The notes under the pieces were generated by a model. That model was not told the origin of the DNA and did not search any database. It saw nothing but the letters and a program-made list of their open reading frames with translations. A DNA stretch of 6,320 nt from Planctomycetota bacterium. Lineage in GTDB: Bacteria; Planctomycetota; Planctomycetia; Pirellulales; Pirellulaceae. Shown here piece by piece: positions 53 through 6,320 of the stretch (the first letter of the stretch is position 1; each line of letters starts with the position of its first letter). A program made the translations under genes and the position numbers. The DNA lies in the NCBI GenBank assembly GCA_026692885.1, contig JAPLNJ010000766.1, positions 1-6,320 of the forward strand, in the 5' to 3' direction.

Positions 53-223
53 GGCCTTGATCATAACGTTGCGCAAAACGCTAGCAGCAGGAGGTCAGGG
101 TGGCTGGGGCAGAGTGCAGCGATGCCCCAGAAATCGGGGACTGGGGCTTCGCTTAGGCTCAGCCACCAGCCACCCGGATCATGGCCAGCACCGACAGCCG
201 TGCGCAACGTTACGATCAAGGCC
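53..223 (+). mobile_element. MITE-like palindromic element, copy A
   Basis: This 171-bp element begins and ends with GGCC. Its terminal inverted repeats, 53-75 against 201-223, match at 22 of 23 positions and start GGCCTTGATC. A second pairing (GGGTGGCTGG near 98-107 with CCAGCCACCC near 166-175) surrounds the interior, which contains a perfect 8-bp hairpin (CTGGGGCA at 104-111, TGCCCCAG at 123-130). It aligns gap-free with the reverse complement of 2521-2691 at 156 of 171 positions. It has no coding capacity, so any mobility would need a transposase supplied in trans. The 9-bp flanks (44-52 and 224-232) do not match, so no target duplication is visible for this copy. It lies 85 bp past the stop codon of the glycosidase gene and could also act as an mRNA 3'-end structure. 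The '+' orientation is arbitrary and only marks it as opposite to copy B. Confidence 0.8.
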
Positions 224-2511: not shown

Positions 2512-2520
2512 CTCTTCCGC
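2512..2520. repeat. 9-bp target-site duplication, left copy
   Basis: CTCTTCCGC directly abuts the GGCC end of the palindromic element at 2521. It is identical to 2692-2700, which directly abuts the other end. A perfect 9-bp direct repeat flush with both element ends is the expected mark of transposition with a 9-bp staggered cut. Confidence 0.75.
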
Positions 2521-2691
2521 GGCCTTGATCGTCAGGTTGCGCACTCCTGTCCGTGCTGGCAACGGTCCGGGTGGCTGGCGGCTGAGCCTAAGCGAAGCCC
2601 CAGTACCCGGTTTCTGGGGCATCGCTGCACTCTGCCCCAGCCACCCGGACCCCCTGCTGCTAGCGTTTTGCGCAACCGTATGATCAAGGCC
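2521..2691 (-). mobile_element. MITE-like palindromic element, copy B
   Basis: This is a 171-bp copy inverted relative to 53-223 and about 91% identical to it without gaps. The terminal inverted repeats match at 20 of 23 positions. A perfect 15-bp inner stem pairs 2564-2578 with 2637-2651 (GGTCCGGGTGGCTGG), and an 8-bp hairpin lies within (2614-2621 with 2633-2640). Perfect 9-bp direct repeats flank it exactly, fixing the boundaries and indicating insertion by a transposase. It encodes nothing and no transposase is in the window, so it is non-autonomous. It sits 15 bp after the stop codon of the 485-residue protein gene, where its hairpin may end or stabilise that transcript. A 9-bp duplication is seen in several IS families, so the parent cannot be named from this alone. 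Confidence 0.85.
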
Positions 2692-2700
2692 CTCTTCCGC
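2692..2700. repeat. 9-bp target-site duplication, right copy
   Basis: CTCTTCCGC follows the GGCC end of copy B and matches 2512-2520 exactly. The pre-insertion site would have carried one copy, 6 bp past the stop codon of the 485-residue protein gene. Confidence 0.75.
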
Positions 2701-2706
2701 CAATCC

Positions 2707-4164
2707 TCATGGGGCTGGCACAGGCTGGGCAGGCGGGAAGTCAGAGGGCTTCTTGACGGTGCCGTCCGAGACTTGTCGGACAGCTTCAAGCATCTCCTGG
2801 TGTGTCTGTGGATACCAGCTGGGGCCGAGCAGTTTATCGAGCATCTGCATGGTCTCCGCGGGCGTTTGGCCAGTGTTCCGCTGGTGACGCTTCCAGAACG
2901 AGTCCCACCACCACGGCGGCTGGACTTTATAACCCTTGAATTCCGTCGGCCGAGTGGATGGCCCGCCAACCACCAGGCTGCCGACGTACGTGGCGTCTTT
3001 GTAGACCCGATTGATTTGCGAGGCAATCTGCTCGAGGTCGTCTTCGGAGACCACGCCGTTGCTGGTAGCTTTGTAGAACTGCACCGTGACGCGGATGGGA
3101 TACTTGGGATCACGACGGACAGGTAGTCCGGCAATCTCTGTGAATGGTCCCTCGACTTTGCCGTGCCCGATCACCGCCTCTTCCACATCACTCGCGGCCG
3201 GAGCGAGTCCGCCGCCCATCCCCATGCCGCCCAGCCCTCCCATGCCGCCCCCGAATCCACCCGCCCGCAACGGGTGTTTTTGCTTGAGGGGCACCTGGAT
3301 CAAGAGCACCATGTTCAAACCGGTCTCGCCAGCCGCCTCGGCCGTGGGACGCTGTGTGCTCGCCTCGCCGCGGTGTTCGGCGTTGAAGTCGCTCTGGCGC
3401 TGGCCGGTCAGACTGGCCCGCTCCCCGCGCTGGTTGAAGAACAAGCGTTGGCCCCACGTCGAGCCGGCCTGAAACCGATCACGCTGGTTGTCGATGACCG
3501 TGACGCTGGTGCCCTCGCGGGTCGCCAGGATGGTCAACACGGCCGGGTCGTCCTGTTGGGATTGGTAGTTGAACAGCACGGGGTTGAACTCCGCCACACC
3601 CTCGCGCGGGATCGGCAGGAAGCAGGCTTGTGCGCTGACCAGCACGTGCGTGTCCCGCGGCGCCAGCAGTGATGTTGCCTCGCCGACCCACGAGTCGGAC
3701 TTGGTCAGGTATTTCCGCAGGCCCCCGAGGAATTCGCGGAGCGAGATTTTCTGCAGCGACTCGCCCTGCTGGTTTCCCACCAGCAACTGGAATTGCTCCA
3801 GGGGCACATCGCCGGTCAGATCGGAGAAGTTCGGGAAACGGATGACGGGCATGCAGGTCAGGGCATATTCACCGGAACGCAGGTCCCGTTGCTGGACTTG
3901 GATGGTCATGTCGCTGATGTTGGGACCCACGGCCGAGTTGTAGTACCGGGCGGTGTCTTCCCACGTGACGTTGAGCACCTGCAAACCGTGCTTCATGGCC
4001 AGCCAACCGGCGGCCGGGTCGCTAACCATAGCGGCCGTAGCTGCGACCACTTTCTGATAGGCCTGGCAGGCTGCGACCTGTTGCGGATCAGGCTCAGCGG
4101 CTGATGCCAGGGCCGCCGCTCCCCATCCGCCGACCACCAACGACAACACGGCGAGCGGCCTCAT
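2707..4164 (-). CDS. exported conserved protein of unknown function (Gly/Met-rich linker)
   Basis: This encodes 485 residues. Residues 1-22 are a signal peptide (hydrophobic stretch ending ALASA, with cleavage before AEP), so the protein is exported. Residues 60-260 form a dense domain with segments such as MPVIRFPNF (105-113), HVLVSAQACFLPIP (173-186), EFNPVLFNYQS (192-202) and VLTILATREGTSVTVID (209-225). I recognise this as a recurring bacterial pattern but cannot name a family or activity. A low-complexity Gly/Met linker (302-319) separates it from a second part (355-485) containing RVTVQFYKATSNGVV (358-372) and a Trp cluster near 418-424. The C-terminus is Pro-rich. No catalytic motif is evident. 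The start has AAGGGGA 6 nt upstream and overlaps the stop codon of the STN-module gene by 4 bp, suggesting co-expression and possibly a shared process. Function unknown. Confidence 0.92.
   Translation of the reverse strand: MRPLAVLSLVVGGWGAAALASAAEPDPQQVAACQAYQKVVAATAAMVSDPAAGWLAMKHGLQVLNVTWEDTARYYNSAVGPNISDMTIQVQQRDLRSGEYALTCMPVIRFPNFSDLTGDVPLEQFQLLVGNQQGESLQKISLREFLGGLRKYLTKSDSWVGEATSLLAPRDTHVLVSAQACFLPIPREGVAEFNPVLFNYQSQQDDPAVLTILATREGTSVTVIDNQRDRFQAGSTWGQRLFFNQRGERASLTGQRQSDFNAEHRGEASTQRPTAEAAGETGLNMVLLIQVPLKQKHPLRAGGFGGGMGGLGGMGMGGGLAPAASDVEEAVIGHGKVEGPFTEIAGLPVRRDPKYPIRVTVQFYKATSNGVVSEDDLEQIASQINRVYKDATYVGSLVVGGPSTRPTEFKGYKVQPPWWWDSFWKRHQRNTGQTPAETMQMLDKLLGPSWYPQTHQEMLEAVRQVSDGTVKKPSDFPPAQPVPAP
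4161..4164 (-). promoter_or_regulatory. ATGA stop/start overlap (translational coupling)
   Basis: On the minus strand the ATG of the 485-residue protein and the TGA of the STN-module protein share ATGA. This 4-bp overlap is typical of translationally coupled operon genes. Confidence 0.75.
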
Positions 4165-5957
4165 TTCGAATCCCCTTGTTTTCGGAGTTTGCGCAGGTCA
4201 GCCAGCAGCCGACTCACTTGCCGTTGCACGGCTGCCGTTTGTGCGACACCCATATTGCCACGAAAGAAGACGATTCGACCAGGGCCGCCGACCATATCCC
4301 AGGAGCTCGGAGAGACGGTCTCTCGAATCACGACGGCCAATCGGTCTGCCGCCTGATCCCTTTTCGTGCCCGCGGGCAGCAGATCCGCCACGTCATGCCA
4401 GCTCAAGACAATCGGCGCAGCGGCTGTCTTGGCCGAATAGATCACAATCTGGCCGCGCGCGACTGACCACCATAAGTCACGGCCCTGGAGACACAAATCG
4501 AGCACGGTGGCCAAGGGCACATCCGCGAGCGAGATGGTCAACGGAGCGTCGAGGTCGGGCGGCCGGATCGCGGCCCGTCGGTCGAGCACGATCGGGCAGG
4601 CGGCCTTCTGGCTCAGTGTGGCGAGCGTCTGATCCAGCGAGGCCTTGGAGCACGACACCGAGGTGGGCTTGGCCAAGGTCTCGGCCAATGGATCTCGATC
4701 AGCGGCCGGTAGCCGGCCGTGCAAGCGTTGCTGGAGGCCTTTCAGCCAGTCCGTAATCTGGTCGTGCTCCGGCTCGCCCTGCAAGACGATCAGGAAGCCT
4801 TCGAAGGGTACCAAGGAACCCGCGCCCCCGGCTTCTTGCCATGTCTCCGGTGAGACGCAGTCCGTCAGCAGGCTGAGGACTTCGCTGTACTCGTAGTCTT
4901 CACCCGCTGCGCGGGTTTCGCCCTCCGGCAGCAGATCGCGCACGTCATAGATCCCCGTACGCCAATGGGTCCTGGCCAGCTCTTCGGTCGTAATGACAAT
5001 CACGCCGTGGCGAGGAACCCAGCCGAGGCCCAGCGGCTCGAGCAGCGTCCGGAGGGCCGCCTCGAGTGTCACGTCCTTGACGCTCAGCCTGGCCGGTGGG
5101 TCCGGCGGCAACCCCGCTTCGTCGATTTCGTCACGAGCCAACACCACGTCCACGTCGGCGGCGGCGGACAGTTTGACCACGGCGTCGGACAGTGGCGTGT
5201 CGTGCAGTTCGAGTGAGAGTTTGCTGCCGAGCGTCTTGGCCCAGGCCGCCTCCGCAGGATCGTCAACTTGTTTGTCGAGGCACACGCGCCGCACACGTCG
5301 CAACAACTCGGCGATCTGTTCGTGGCGGGCATCGGTCTGTGAAATCACCAGAGTGCCGGCAAAGGGACGCACCGCACCGAAGCCGCCGACTGCGTCCCAG
5401 GCCGTGGGGTCGATGATGGACGTGAGGATCTCGATCATCCGCTCGTAGTCTCCCGCGCTGGCTTTCGCGGGATCGAGGCCGCGGGCGCGGAGGAAATCGC
5501 TGACGTCGTAGACCACGGTTCGCAGCTGACGCTCGGCCTCCGTCTGCGTGGTGATGACCAGCACTCCGTCACGGACGAAGTAGGCCAACTTCAGCGGTTG
5601 GAGCAGTTGCTGCAGCGCGCCCCCCAGCGTGCCGTGGGTCAGTCGAATCGAAAGCGGCATGCTTGGGTCGATGCCCTCCGCCTCCAAGTGACGCTGGTCG
5701 AGCACCACGTTGATCTTGTGGGTCAGCCGCAGGGATTCGACCAAGGTGTCCAGCGGAAACCCGCGCAATTTCAGATCGGGCCGGCTGGCCAGGACTCTAG
5801 TCAAGGCCGCGTCGGACGTAACGTCGGCGCCGGAGGCGGCTAGGGGACTGGGTGGCTCGACACCCTTCCCAGGTTCTGCGGCCGCGCCAGGAACCGTCGG
5901 CGTCAGGGCGCCCAAGACCCTGCCGACCACGAGCCAGATGCCAAGAAATCGTCGCAT
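4161..5957 (-). CDS. exported protein with three tandem STN-like modules
   Basis: This encodes 598 residues with a signal peptide at 1-27 (MRRF, hydrophobic core, then PGAAA before EP). The rest is three tandem modules of about 160 residues: 62-225, 247-410 and 432-591. Each opens with a secretin/TonB short N-terminal (STN)-like fold: a helix, a VVLD-type strand, LSI/LSV/ISL before a 'V/T-L-x-x-A/V-L' helix, then a strand ending VITT, VITT or VIYS. Each continues with a second block carrying YDVSDFL, YDVRDLL or HDVADLL, then PTAW, PETW or PSSW, a GG pair, and a closing helix. STN domains usually sit at the N-termini of secretins and TonB receptors, but no pore or barrel domain follows. A periplasmic binding or scaffold role is an inference. 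ATG 5957 is chosen because it starts the signal peptide and has GGGGAAA 7 nt upstream; the frame stays open to 6314, but that extension is Trp/Arg-rich and lacks family-like features. Confidence 0.92.
   Translation of the reverse strand: MRRFLGIWLVVGRVLGALTPTVPGAAAEPGKGVEPPSPLAASGADVTSDAALTRVLASRPDLKLRGFPLDTLVESLRLTHKINVVLDQRHLEAEGIDPSMPLSIRLTHGTLGGALQQLLQPLKLAYFVRDGVLVITTQTEAERQLRTVVYDVSDFLRARGLDPAKASAGDYERMIEILTSIIDPTAWDAVGGFGAVRPFAGTLVISQTDARHEQIAELLRRVRRVCLDKQVDDPAEAAWAKTLGSKLSLELHDTPLSDAVVKLSAAADVDVVLARDEIDEAGLPPDPPARLSVKDVTLEAALRTLLEPLGLGWVPRHGVIVITTEELARTHWRTGIYDVRDLLPEGETRAAGEDYEYSEVLSLLTDCVSPETWQEAGGAGSLVPFEGFLIVLQGEPEHDQITDWLKGLQQRLHGRLPAADRDPLAETLAKPTSVSCSKASLDQTLATLSQKAACPIVLDRRAAIRPPDLDAPLTISLADVPLATVLDLCLQGRDLWWSVARGQIVIYSAKTAAAPIVLSWHDVADLLPAGTKRDQAADRLAVVIRETVSPSSWDMVGGPGRIVFFRGNMGVAQTAAVQRQVSRLLADLRKLRKQGDSK
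4171..4177 (-). promoter_or_regulatory. ribosome binding site of the 485-residue protein gene
   Basis: The minus strand reads AAGGGGA with a 6-nt spacer to ATG 4164. It lies inside the 3' end of the upstream gene, so initiation may be helped by ribosomes finishing that gene. Confidence 0.5.
4185..4664 (-). repeat. third STN-like module (protein-level repeat)
   Basis: This encodes residues 432-591 of the STN-module protein. It keeps the shared HDVADLLP, PSSWDMVGGPG and closing-helix pattern. It is the most diverged of the three: the strand before the second block reads VIYS rather than VITT, and it lacks the acidic insert between the DVADLL and PSSW motifs. Confidence 0.65.
4728..5219 (-). 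repeat. second STN-like module (protein-level repeat)
   Basis: This encodes residues 247-410. VIVITT (319-324), YDVRDLLP (337-344), SPETW (369-373) and VPFEGFLIV (383-391) match the equivalents in the first module in order and spacing. Both modules span 164 residues. Confidence 0.7.
5283..5774 (-). repeat. first STN-like module (protein-level repeat)
   Basis: This encodes residues 62-225: VLVITT (132-137), YDVSDFL (150-156), DPTAW (183-187), a GG pair (191-192), RPFAGTLVISQT (197-208) and a helix ending LLRRVRR. It is the clearest STN-like module and defines the pattern for the other two. Confidence 0.7.
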
Positions 5958-5964
5958 GACAGCA

Positions 5965-5971
5965 TTTCCCC
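5965..5971 (-). promoter_or_regulatory. ribosome binding site of the STN-module gene
   Basis: The minus strand reads GGGGAAA with a 7-nt spacer to ATG 5957. It is a modest match to a Shine-Dalgarno sequence but supports this start over the upstream in-frame ATG at 6314, whose AGGAGG abuts the codon with no spacer. Confidence 0.45.
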
Positions 5972-6026
5972 GCTGAGTGTTCCGCCGACGCGGGCGAGGC
6001 CCACACGCCCCAGCCTTCCTGATTCT

Positions 6027-6047
6027 AGGGATCTGCTGAGGATCCCT
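6027..6047. other. 7-bp perfect inverted repeat in the STN-gene leader
   Basis: AGGGATC and GATCCCT form a perfect 7-bp stem around a 7-nt loop, 70 bp upstream of ATG 5957. No T-run follows on either strand. It could be a leader hairpin or a protein-binding site, or chance. Confidence 0.3.
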
Positions 6048-6308
6048 CAACCATTTGCCGAGAAGAAGCTGGTCCGGGCGTCGTACGACAAGCTGGAACT
6101 TCAGCAGCCCGAGGCAGTGCCAGTCGCCCAGTTCGACACGTCCCTTGGAATGTCCCGTATGCCACGCACGGCATTCATCCCGCGCGGCAGTCGGCGGCTG
6201 TACGCCTTTGGCACCGAATCTGTGCCAGGACAACGTGAGCCCGGATTGGAGAACGACCCTAATGTACCCAGACCGGAGTCCCCATTGGTGCCCAAGCGAA
6301 TAATGTAG
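6033..6308 (+). pseudogene. possible plus-strand gene remnant without a standard start
   Basis: A plus-strand frame ending in TAG at 6306-6308 reads as plausible protein: it includes FAEKKLVRASYDKLELQQPE, AQFDTSLGMSRMPRTAFIP and GSRRLYAFGTESVPGQ, and its third positions are GC-rich in the 5' half. The first ATG/GTG/TTG in frame is GTG 6117, part-way through the coding-like stretch, so the 5' part lacks a normal start. CTG codons at 6033 and 6036 exist but have only a weak upstream AGGG. I do not recognise a family. It may be the tail of a gene cut off when the STN-module gene became its neighbour, or a chance open frame. It lies head-to-head with the STN-module gene. Confidence 0.25.
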
Positions 6309-6320
6309 CAGCATCCTCCT

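Follow-up and report, generated by a model that had tools for sequence, protein, structure and literature searches.

What is the 171-bp palindrome that occurs twice in the window (the whole 6,320-nucleotide stretch of DNA analysed), and does it constitute one mobile element or a combination of elements? A preliminary description had interpreted it as a MITE-like element with terminal inverted repeats, an exact 9-bp flanking duplication, no coding capacity and a second copy 2.3 kb away. All these structural features were recovered. Copy B, at 2521-2691, is a palindrome whose 23-bp terminal inverted repeats are 87% complementary. It is bordered on both sides by a perfect direct repeat, CTCTTCCGC, which is the sole direct repeat of at least 8 bp reported within 2490-2720. 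When folded as DNA, copy B forms one long hairpin (-62.4 kcal/mol, z -9.4; 0/200 shuffles as good), and the corresponding value for RNA is -114.1 (z -10.2; again 0/200 shuffles as good). Several open reading frames overlap copies A and B; these are mechanical calls for which we saw no evidence of real genes. The 171-bp element therefore combines terminal inverted repeats, small size and absence of a transposase gene, as is typical of MITEs. The positions of its parts, an outer shell that we name S1 and an inner hairpin that we name H1, are given in Table 1.

Table 1. Positions in the window of the parts of copy B, and of copy A
Feature	Position	Strand	Remarks
Left target-site duplication CTCTTCCGC	2512..2520	.	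exact 9-bp boundary repeat
Left terminal inverted repeat, shell S1, copy B	2521..2543	+	23-bp end
Left subterminal shell part, copy B	2544..2568	+	joins the left end to the core
H1 core, 78-bp REPIN-like hairpin	2569..2646	+	separate multi-copy repeat in Pirellulales
Right subterminal shell part, copy B	2647..2668	+	flanks core
Right terminal inverted repeat, shell S1, copy B	2669..2691	+	23-bp end
Right target-site duplication CTCTTCCGC	2692..2700	.	exact 9-bp boundary repeat
Copy A of the composite	53..223	-	inverted relative to copy B, 156/171 identical, without target duplication; H1 core at 98-175

The arms of copies A and B are separated by 2295 nt. Identity between the two copies is 21/23 for each of the ends, 18/24 for the left subterminal part, 76/80 for the core segment and 20/21 for the right subterminal part. 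The 63 stem pairs predicted for copy B are largely preserved in copy A: 58 are identical, one is retained through changes in both partners, one is retained despite a one-sided change, and three are broken by one-sided changes. The flanks of copy A match at 4/9 bases, and no direct repeat of at least 8 bp is present in 30-250. Since the two copies have both shell-hairpin junctions in common, the composite most likely moved as a single unit in the genome of the window. The shared junctions, the similar identity along shell and core, and the pairing of shell and hairpin into one long stem would also suit a simple MITE, namely a single-unit, internally deleted IS that spans all 171 bp and has the hairpin as part of its original sequence. 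As shown below, the distribution of shell and hairpin among relatives makes this reading improbable.

Two neighbouring genes occupy the region 2707-6314 next to copy B. One is a 717-aa open reading frame in which an STN domain (secretin/TonB N-terminal) was recognised; the other encodes a 485-aa protein that has no Pfam match at 1e-3. The 485-aa protein adjoins copy B; its best relative (60% identical, genome G129) is located beside different neighbours, and no element is present at that locus (L381), but the downstream neighbour there differs from that in the window.

Mobility of the shell was analysed on independent copies. A strict S1 end pattern, GGCCTTGATCGTAACCTTGC (20 bases, at most one mismatch), was run on 396 Pirellulales genomes and gave 36 matches in six of them; the reversed control gave 0. 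All six genomes belong to one family, in which they represent 6/119 genomes, so that the host of the window is probably a member of this family; matches in Pirellulales are also in keeping with a planctomycete origin. In the scanned loci, paired S1 ends delimited 20 distinct elements of 56-287 bp, three of which (L387, L393 and L397) are based on weak end matches and one of which (L145) carries its H1 label through a loose-pattern match. For the 19 elements having both flanks we compared the 8 or 9 bases that directly adjoin the element on either side, using 342 mismatched flank pairings as control. Flanking repeats of at least 75% identity were found for 13/19 elements versus 6/342 mismatched pairings, those of at least 85% for 10/19 versus 0/342, and perfect repeats for 8/19 versus 0/342. 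The 75% threshold was missed by six elements: copy A, L181, L235, L244, L387 and L397. Because flanking repeats so far exceed those of mismatched pairings, we conclude that S1 is a MITE that makes 8-9-bp target duplications. It is also dispersed, with two copies in the window in addition to the 36 strict end matches in six genomes. The MITE-like nature and approximately 9-bp duplication deduced originally from a single site are thus borne out by independent S1 elements of other genomes. The same counts bear on the view that the palindrome is an immobile regulatory or terminator hairpin with a chance 9-bp repeat. This view draws on the position of both copies, each of which closely follows, on its downstream side, the stop of a predicted minus-strand gene; with perfect duplications in 8/19 family members and none among 342 controls, its probability is negligible, although a mobile hairpin may later have been put to regulatory use.

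The centre of the element behaves differently from its ends. A 189-bp query matched at least 27 of the 396 Pirellulales genomes, mostly through query positions 58-135, i.e. window 2569-2646. Among the matches listed, seven genomes each had 12 to 56 H1 matches, in which palindromic copies are sometimes listed on both strands. Inspected by eye, H1 consists of two inverted imperfect palindromes and a spacer; it begins with GGGTGGC and ends with GCCACCC, and of the 92 copies gathered, which include the two in the window, 44 are 77-79 bp long. H1 is multi-copy in genomes that gave no match to the strict S1 pattern (e.g. G013, G047, G173 and G253), which argues against the hairpin being the interior of a simple MITE. 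The suggestion that such palindromes are common in planctomycetes hence applies, within Pirellulales, to the inner hairpin and not to the shell.

The sequence d(GCGNAGC) forms an exceptionally stable DNA mini-hairpin. It occurs on at least one strand in 71 and on both strands in 39 of the 92 collected H1 copies, counts that stand without an in-hairpin control; the window copies contain degenerate forms. The motif was rarer than its reversed control in random contigs of G173 (139 versus 309), G221 (89 versus 137) and G320 (115 versus 143), so that these samples, which are too sparse to gauge hairpin families, display no general GCGNAGC enrichment. Direct repeats at the edges of H1 itself were not in excess (0/91 with at least 7 bp; control rate 0.45%). 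Because of this, and because no Y1 gene was close by in the fetched loci (see below), mobility of H1 in its own right is deduced from its copy number. Like REPs/REPINs, H1 has two inverted palindromic units in a single hairpin and a high copy number per genome; since it has GGGTGGC/GCCACCC ends and neither a GTAG nor a CGTC tag, we do not class it as a member of the GTAG/CGTC-type REPs/REPINs. Two H1 loci deserve mention. At L001, an H1 fragment (332-366) lies ~170 bp from a 545-aa open reading frame (532-2169) that by eye looks like a transposase and may be IS1182-like. At L104 (340-503), a very long near-perfect inverted repeat surrounds the H1 core; it lies where a contig ends and may be a fold-back of the assembly.

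Shell and hairpin are separate modules that are combined differently in relatives. Shell S1 contains H1 in the window, the GTAACCCGAAGC hairpin (H2) in G221, the GTAGCCGAAGTC hairpin (H3) in G320 and G259, and the GTAGGGTG hairpin (H4) as well as another hairpin, H5, in G145; elements L052 and L149 have other interiors. The short S1 elements L017, L186 and L188 contain none of the hairpins H1-H5, and each of them has a perfect duplication. The most informative pair is found in G320, where the empty L186 (65 bp) and the filled L161 (139 bp), located at different sites with their own perfect duplications, are distinguished by one clean 74-bp block and a single mismatch in 65 aligned bases; insertion and deletion both fit this difference. 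That S1 occurs with other hairpins or with none, and that a clean block divides filled from empty shells, is not what a simple MITE predicts. The empty shells with perfect duplications of their own, together with the 8/19 versus 0/342 counts, likewise make it very improbable that a REP-like hairpin merely entered an existing palindrome at which the 9-bp repeat is incidental, even though REP dimers inserted in palindromes have been described (PMC3733652 section 7). The flank-duplication counts refute such a passive target for S1 only.

The converse combination, one hairpin in several shells, was also observed. H1 cores were located inside a larger inverted repeat (score of at least 24) in 16/91 cases versus 8/898 mismatched pairs; these 16 include the two window copies, the possible fold-back at L104, and L005, L036, L039 and L063, which all have the same outer sequence, S2. 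The outer sequences around H1 are of several kinds, among them GAGGGCATTTCAAAACC (S2) and those present at L021 and at L006. Eleven paired S2 elements, one of which (L018) is assigned to S2 only under a 5-mismatch pattern, contain H1 in six cases and the GTCATCCTGAGCG hairpin (H6) in five. We do not claim an IS630-like assignment of S2, given that a two-sided TA is present in just 3/11 elements. In G145, all 27 of the H2 loci fetched lie in one of two additional shells, 17 of them in TATACCGCTCGCGGTCGAGA and 10 in TATACTCNGCGCGGGCGC; 46/49 hairpin arms adjoin a shell end, as judged with shell patterns that allow mismatches and have no shuffled control, and the genome has 64 H2 pattern matches in total.

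Some hairpins reach very high copy numbers: H6 gave 174 unit matches in G173 and H2 gave 142 in G221 (controls 0). In the outer-palindrome test, H6 of G173 was not in excess inside larger palindromes (4/49 versus 46/957 controls at a score of at least 24), and H2 scored 6/19 versus 56/367; the controls of this test are inflated for H6 and H2, since copies that share a shell pair among themselves. On contigs C43, C177 (the stretch at L393) and C375 of G221, the H2-like unit GTAACCCGACGCGTAAGCGAGG forms short tandem runs. Outside Pirellulales, the H6 unit GTCATCCTGAGCGNAGCGAAGGATC has exact matches in 62 viral-contig stretches (L428-L489), and viral H6 hairpins with both flanks are located inside a larger inverted repeat in 5/30 cases versus 17/870 mismatched pairs. 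Two H6 hairpins of a single viral contig (L457:2416 and L457:10902) have similar flanks on both sides, which suggests duplication of a unit longer than the hairpin. The H1 pattern matched one viral contig, and plasmids and viral contigs gave no match to the element, its core 20-mer or the S1 ends. Shell-hairpin nesting may be more general than Pirellulales.

Together these results indicate, with a probability of roughly 80%, that the element is a composite, in which the centre of a non-autonomous transposon (MITE) holds another, nested repeat. The original MITE reading was correct as regards mobility and the 8-9-bp duplication and incomplete in that the element comprises two nested modules. 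It is this modular nesting, rather than the MITE and its duplication as such, that is the more interesting result.

The enzymes behind the two modules were sought in the neighbourhood of their copies. A full-length IS with the ends of the element, which the preliminary description had proposed to look for, was not found in the fetched loci around S1 ends, nor was any autonomous element or transposase with S1 ends: these loci contained short elements, decayed single ends and contig breaks. A broken Y1 fragment is located near one S1 end on G145:C604; in L407, the sequence past this fragment showed no other S1 end. Judged by duplication length only, candidate parents of S1 would presumably be IS256, IS1, ISL3, IS5/IS903 and IS1595. 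Y1 transposase matches numbered 97 and were present in 11/11 genomes searched. At the 30 of these 97 loci that were fetched, an H1 half-core was never found within ~500 bp of the Y1 domain (0/30) and was found at roughly 0.6-1 kb in 2/30, and a Y1 link for H1 is therefore unsupported in these 30 loci. No enzyme dedicated to the hairpin was found.

How hairpins come to reside in shells can be envisaged in two ways. The ends of S1 would be recognised by a transposase that makes the 8-9-bp duplications; the hairpin, as single-stranded DNA, would enter the loop of the extruded MITE palindrome, and the MITE transposase would then spread the loaded shell-hairpin pair. We put forward this route of loop entry followed by transposase spread tentatively. 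Its extension, according to which a hairpin-specific single-strand activity in Pirellulales, and perhaps wider, loads MITE loops that unrelated transposases distribute, so that one hairpin family uses several chassis, is more doubtful. Alternatively, the composite reading is right and hairpins were swapped by recombination, template switching or slippage at stalled forks, without a dedicated enzyme. The hairpin edges without direct-repeat excess, the lack of a fetched Y1 locus with H1 close beside it, and the insert of L161, which is flanked by short related sequences with TGCCA on both sides, are consistent with such an exchange, whereas the presence of the same hairpins at high copy both in and out of shells (174 H6 in G173, 142 H2 in G221) is harder to reconcile with it; we give it close to an even chance.

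If MITEs with clean target duplications transport such hairpins as interchangeable cargo, this would provide a concrete route of spread for REP-like palindromes outside the GTAG/RAYT systems, and filled and empty pairs such as L161/L186 make the shell-hairpin junction directly testable. There is also a consequence for classification: grouping repeats by interior can bring together unrelated transposons, and grouping them by ends can bring together unrelated cargos.

In the literature searched, outside of which most subscription journals fall, no description was found of MITEs whose REPIN-like cargo is exchangeable. The bacterial MITEs named in PMC3733652, which include Nezha, NEMIS, ERIC, RUP and others, are like S1 short, non-coding and hairpin-forming, with terminal inverted repeats and a target duplication. 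S1 differs from them in that a separate hairpin of high copy number fills its interior and varies between copies of one shell, and in that no parent IS was identified for it. REPINs, as presented in PMC3116915, are REP doublets that form hairpins; H1 resembles them in its two inverted palindromic units with a spacer, its single hairpin and its multiple copies, but has no GTAG start and, in the 30 of 97 Y1 loci fetched, no adjacent Y1 gene, and it sits inside a MITE. Nesting of mobile elements has a parallel in Thiomargarita, where, according to PMC4853749, a MITE lies in a group I intron, whereas here it is the hairpin repeat that lies in the MITE. The closest precedent for the nesting, REP-like dimers in a longer palindrome, is provided by PMC3733652 section 7, which describes REP dimers "inserted within long palindromic sequences" of Anabaena variabilis and Halothiobacillus neapolitanus, in neither of which REP-free palindromes were found, and GTAG-23 elements in small palindromes of Thermomicrobium roseum. 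That section mentions no target duplications; unlike the cases it describes, S1 shells have 8-9-bp duplications, exist in empty versions and carry several cargos.
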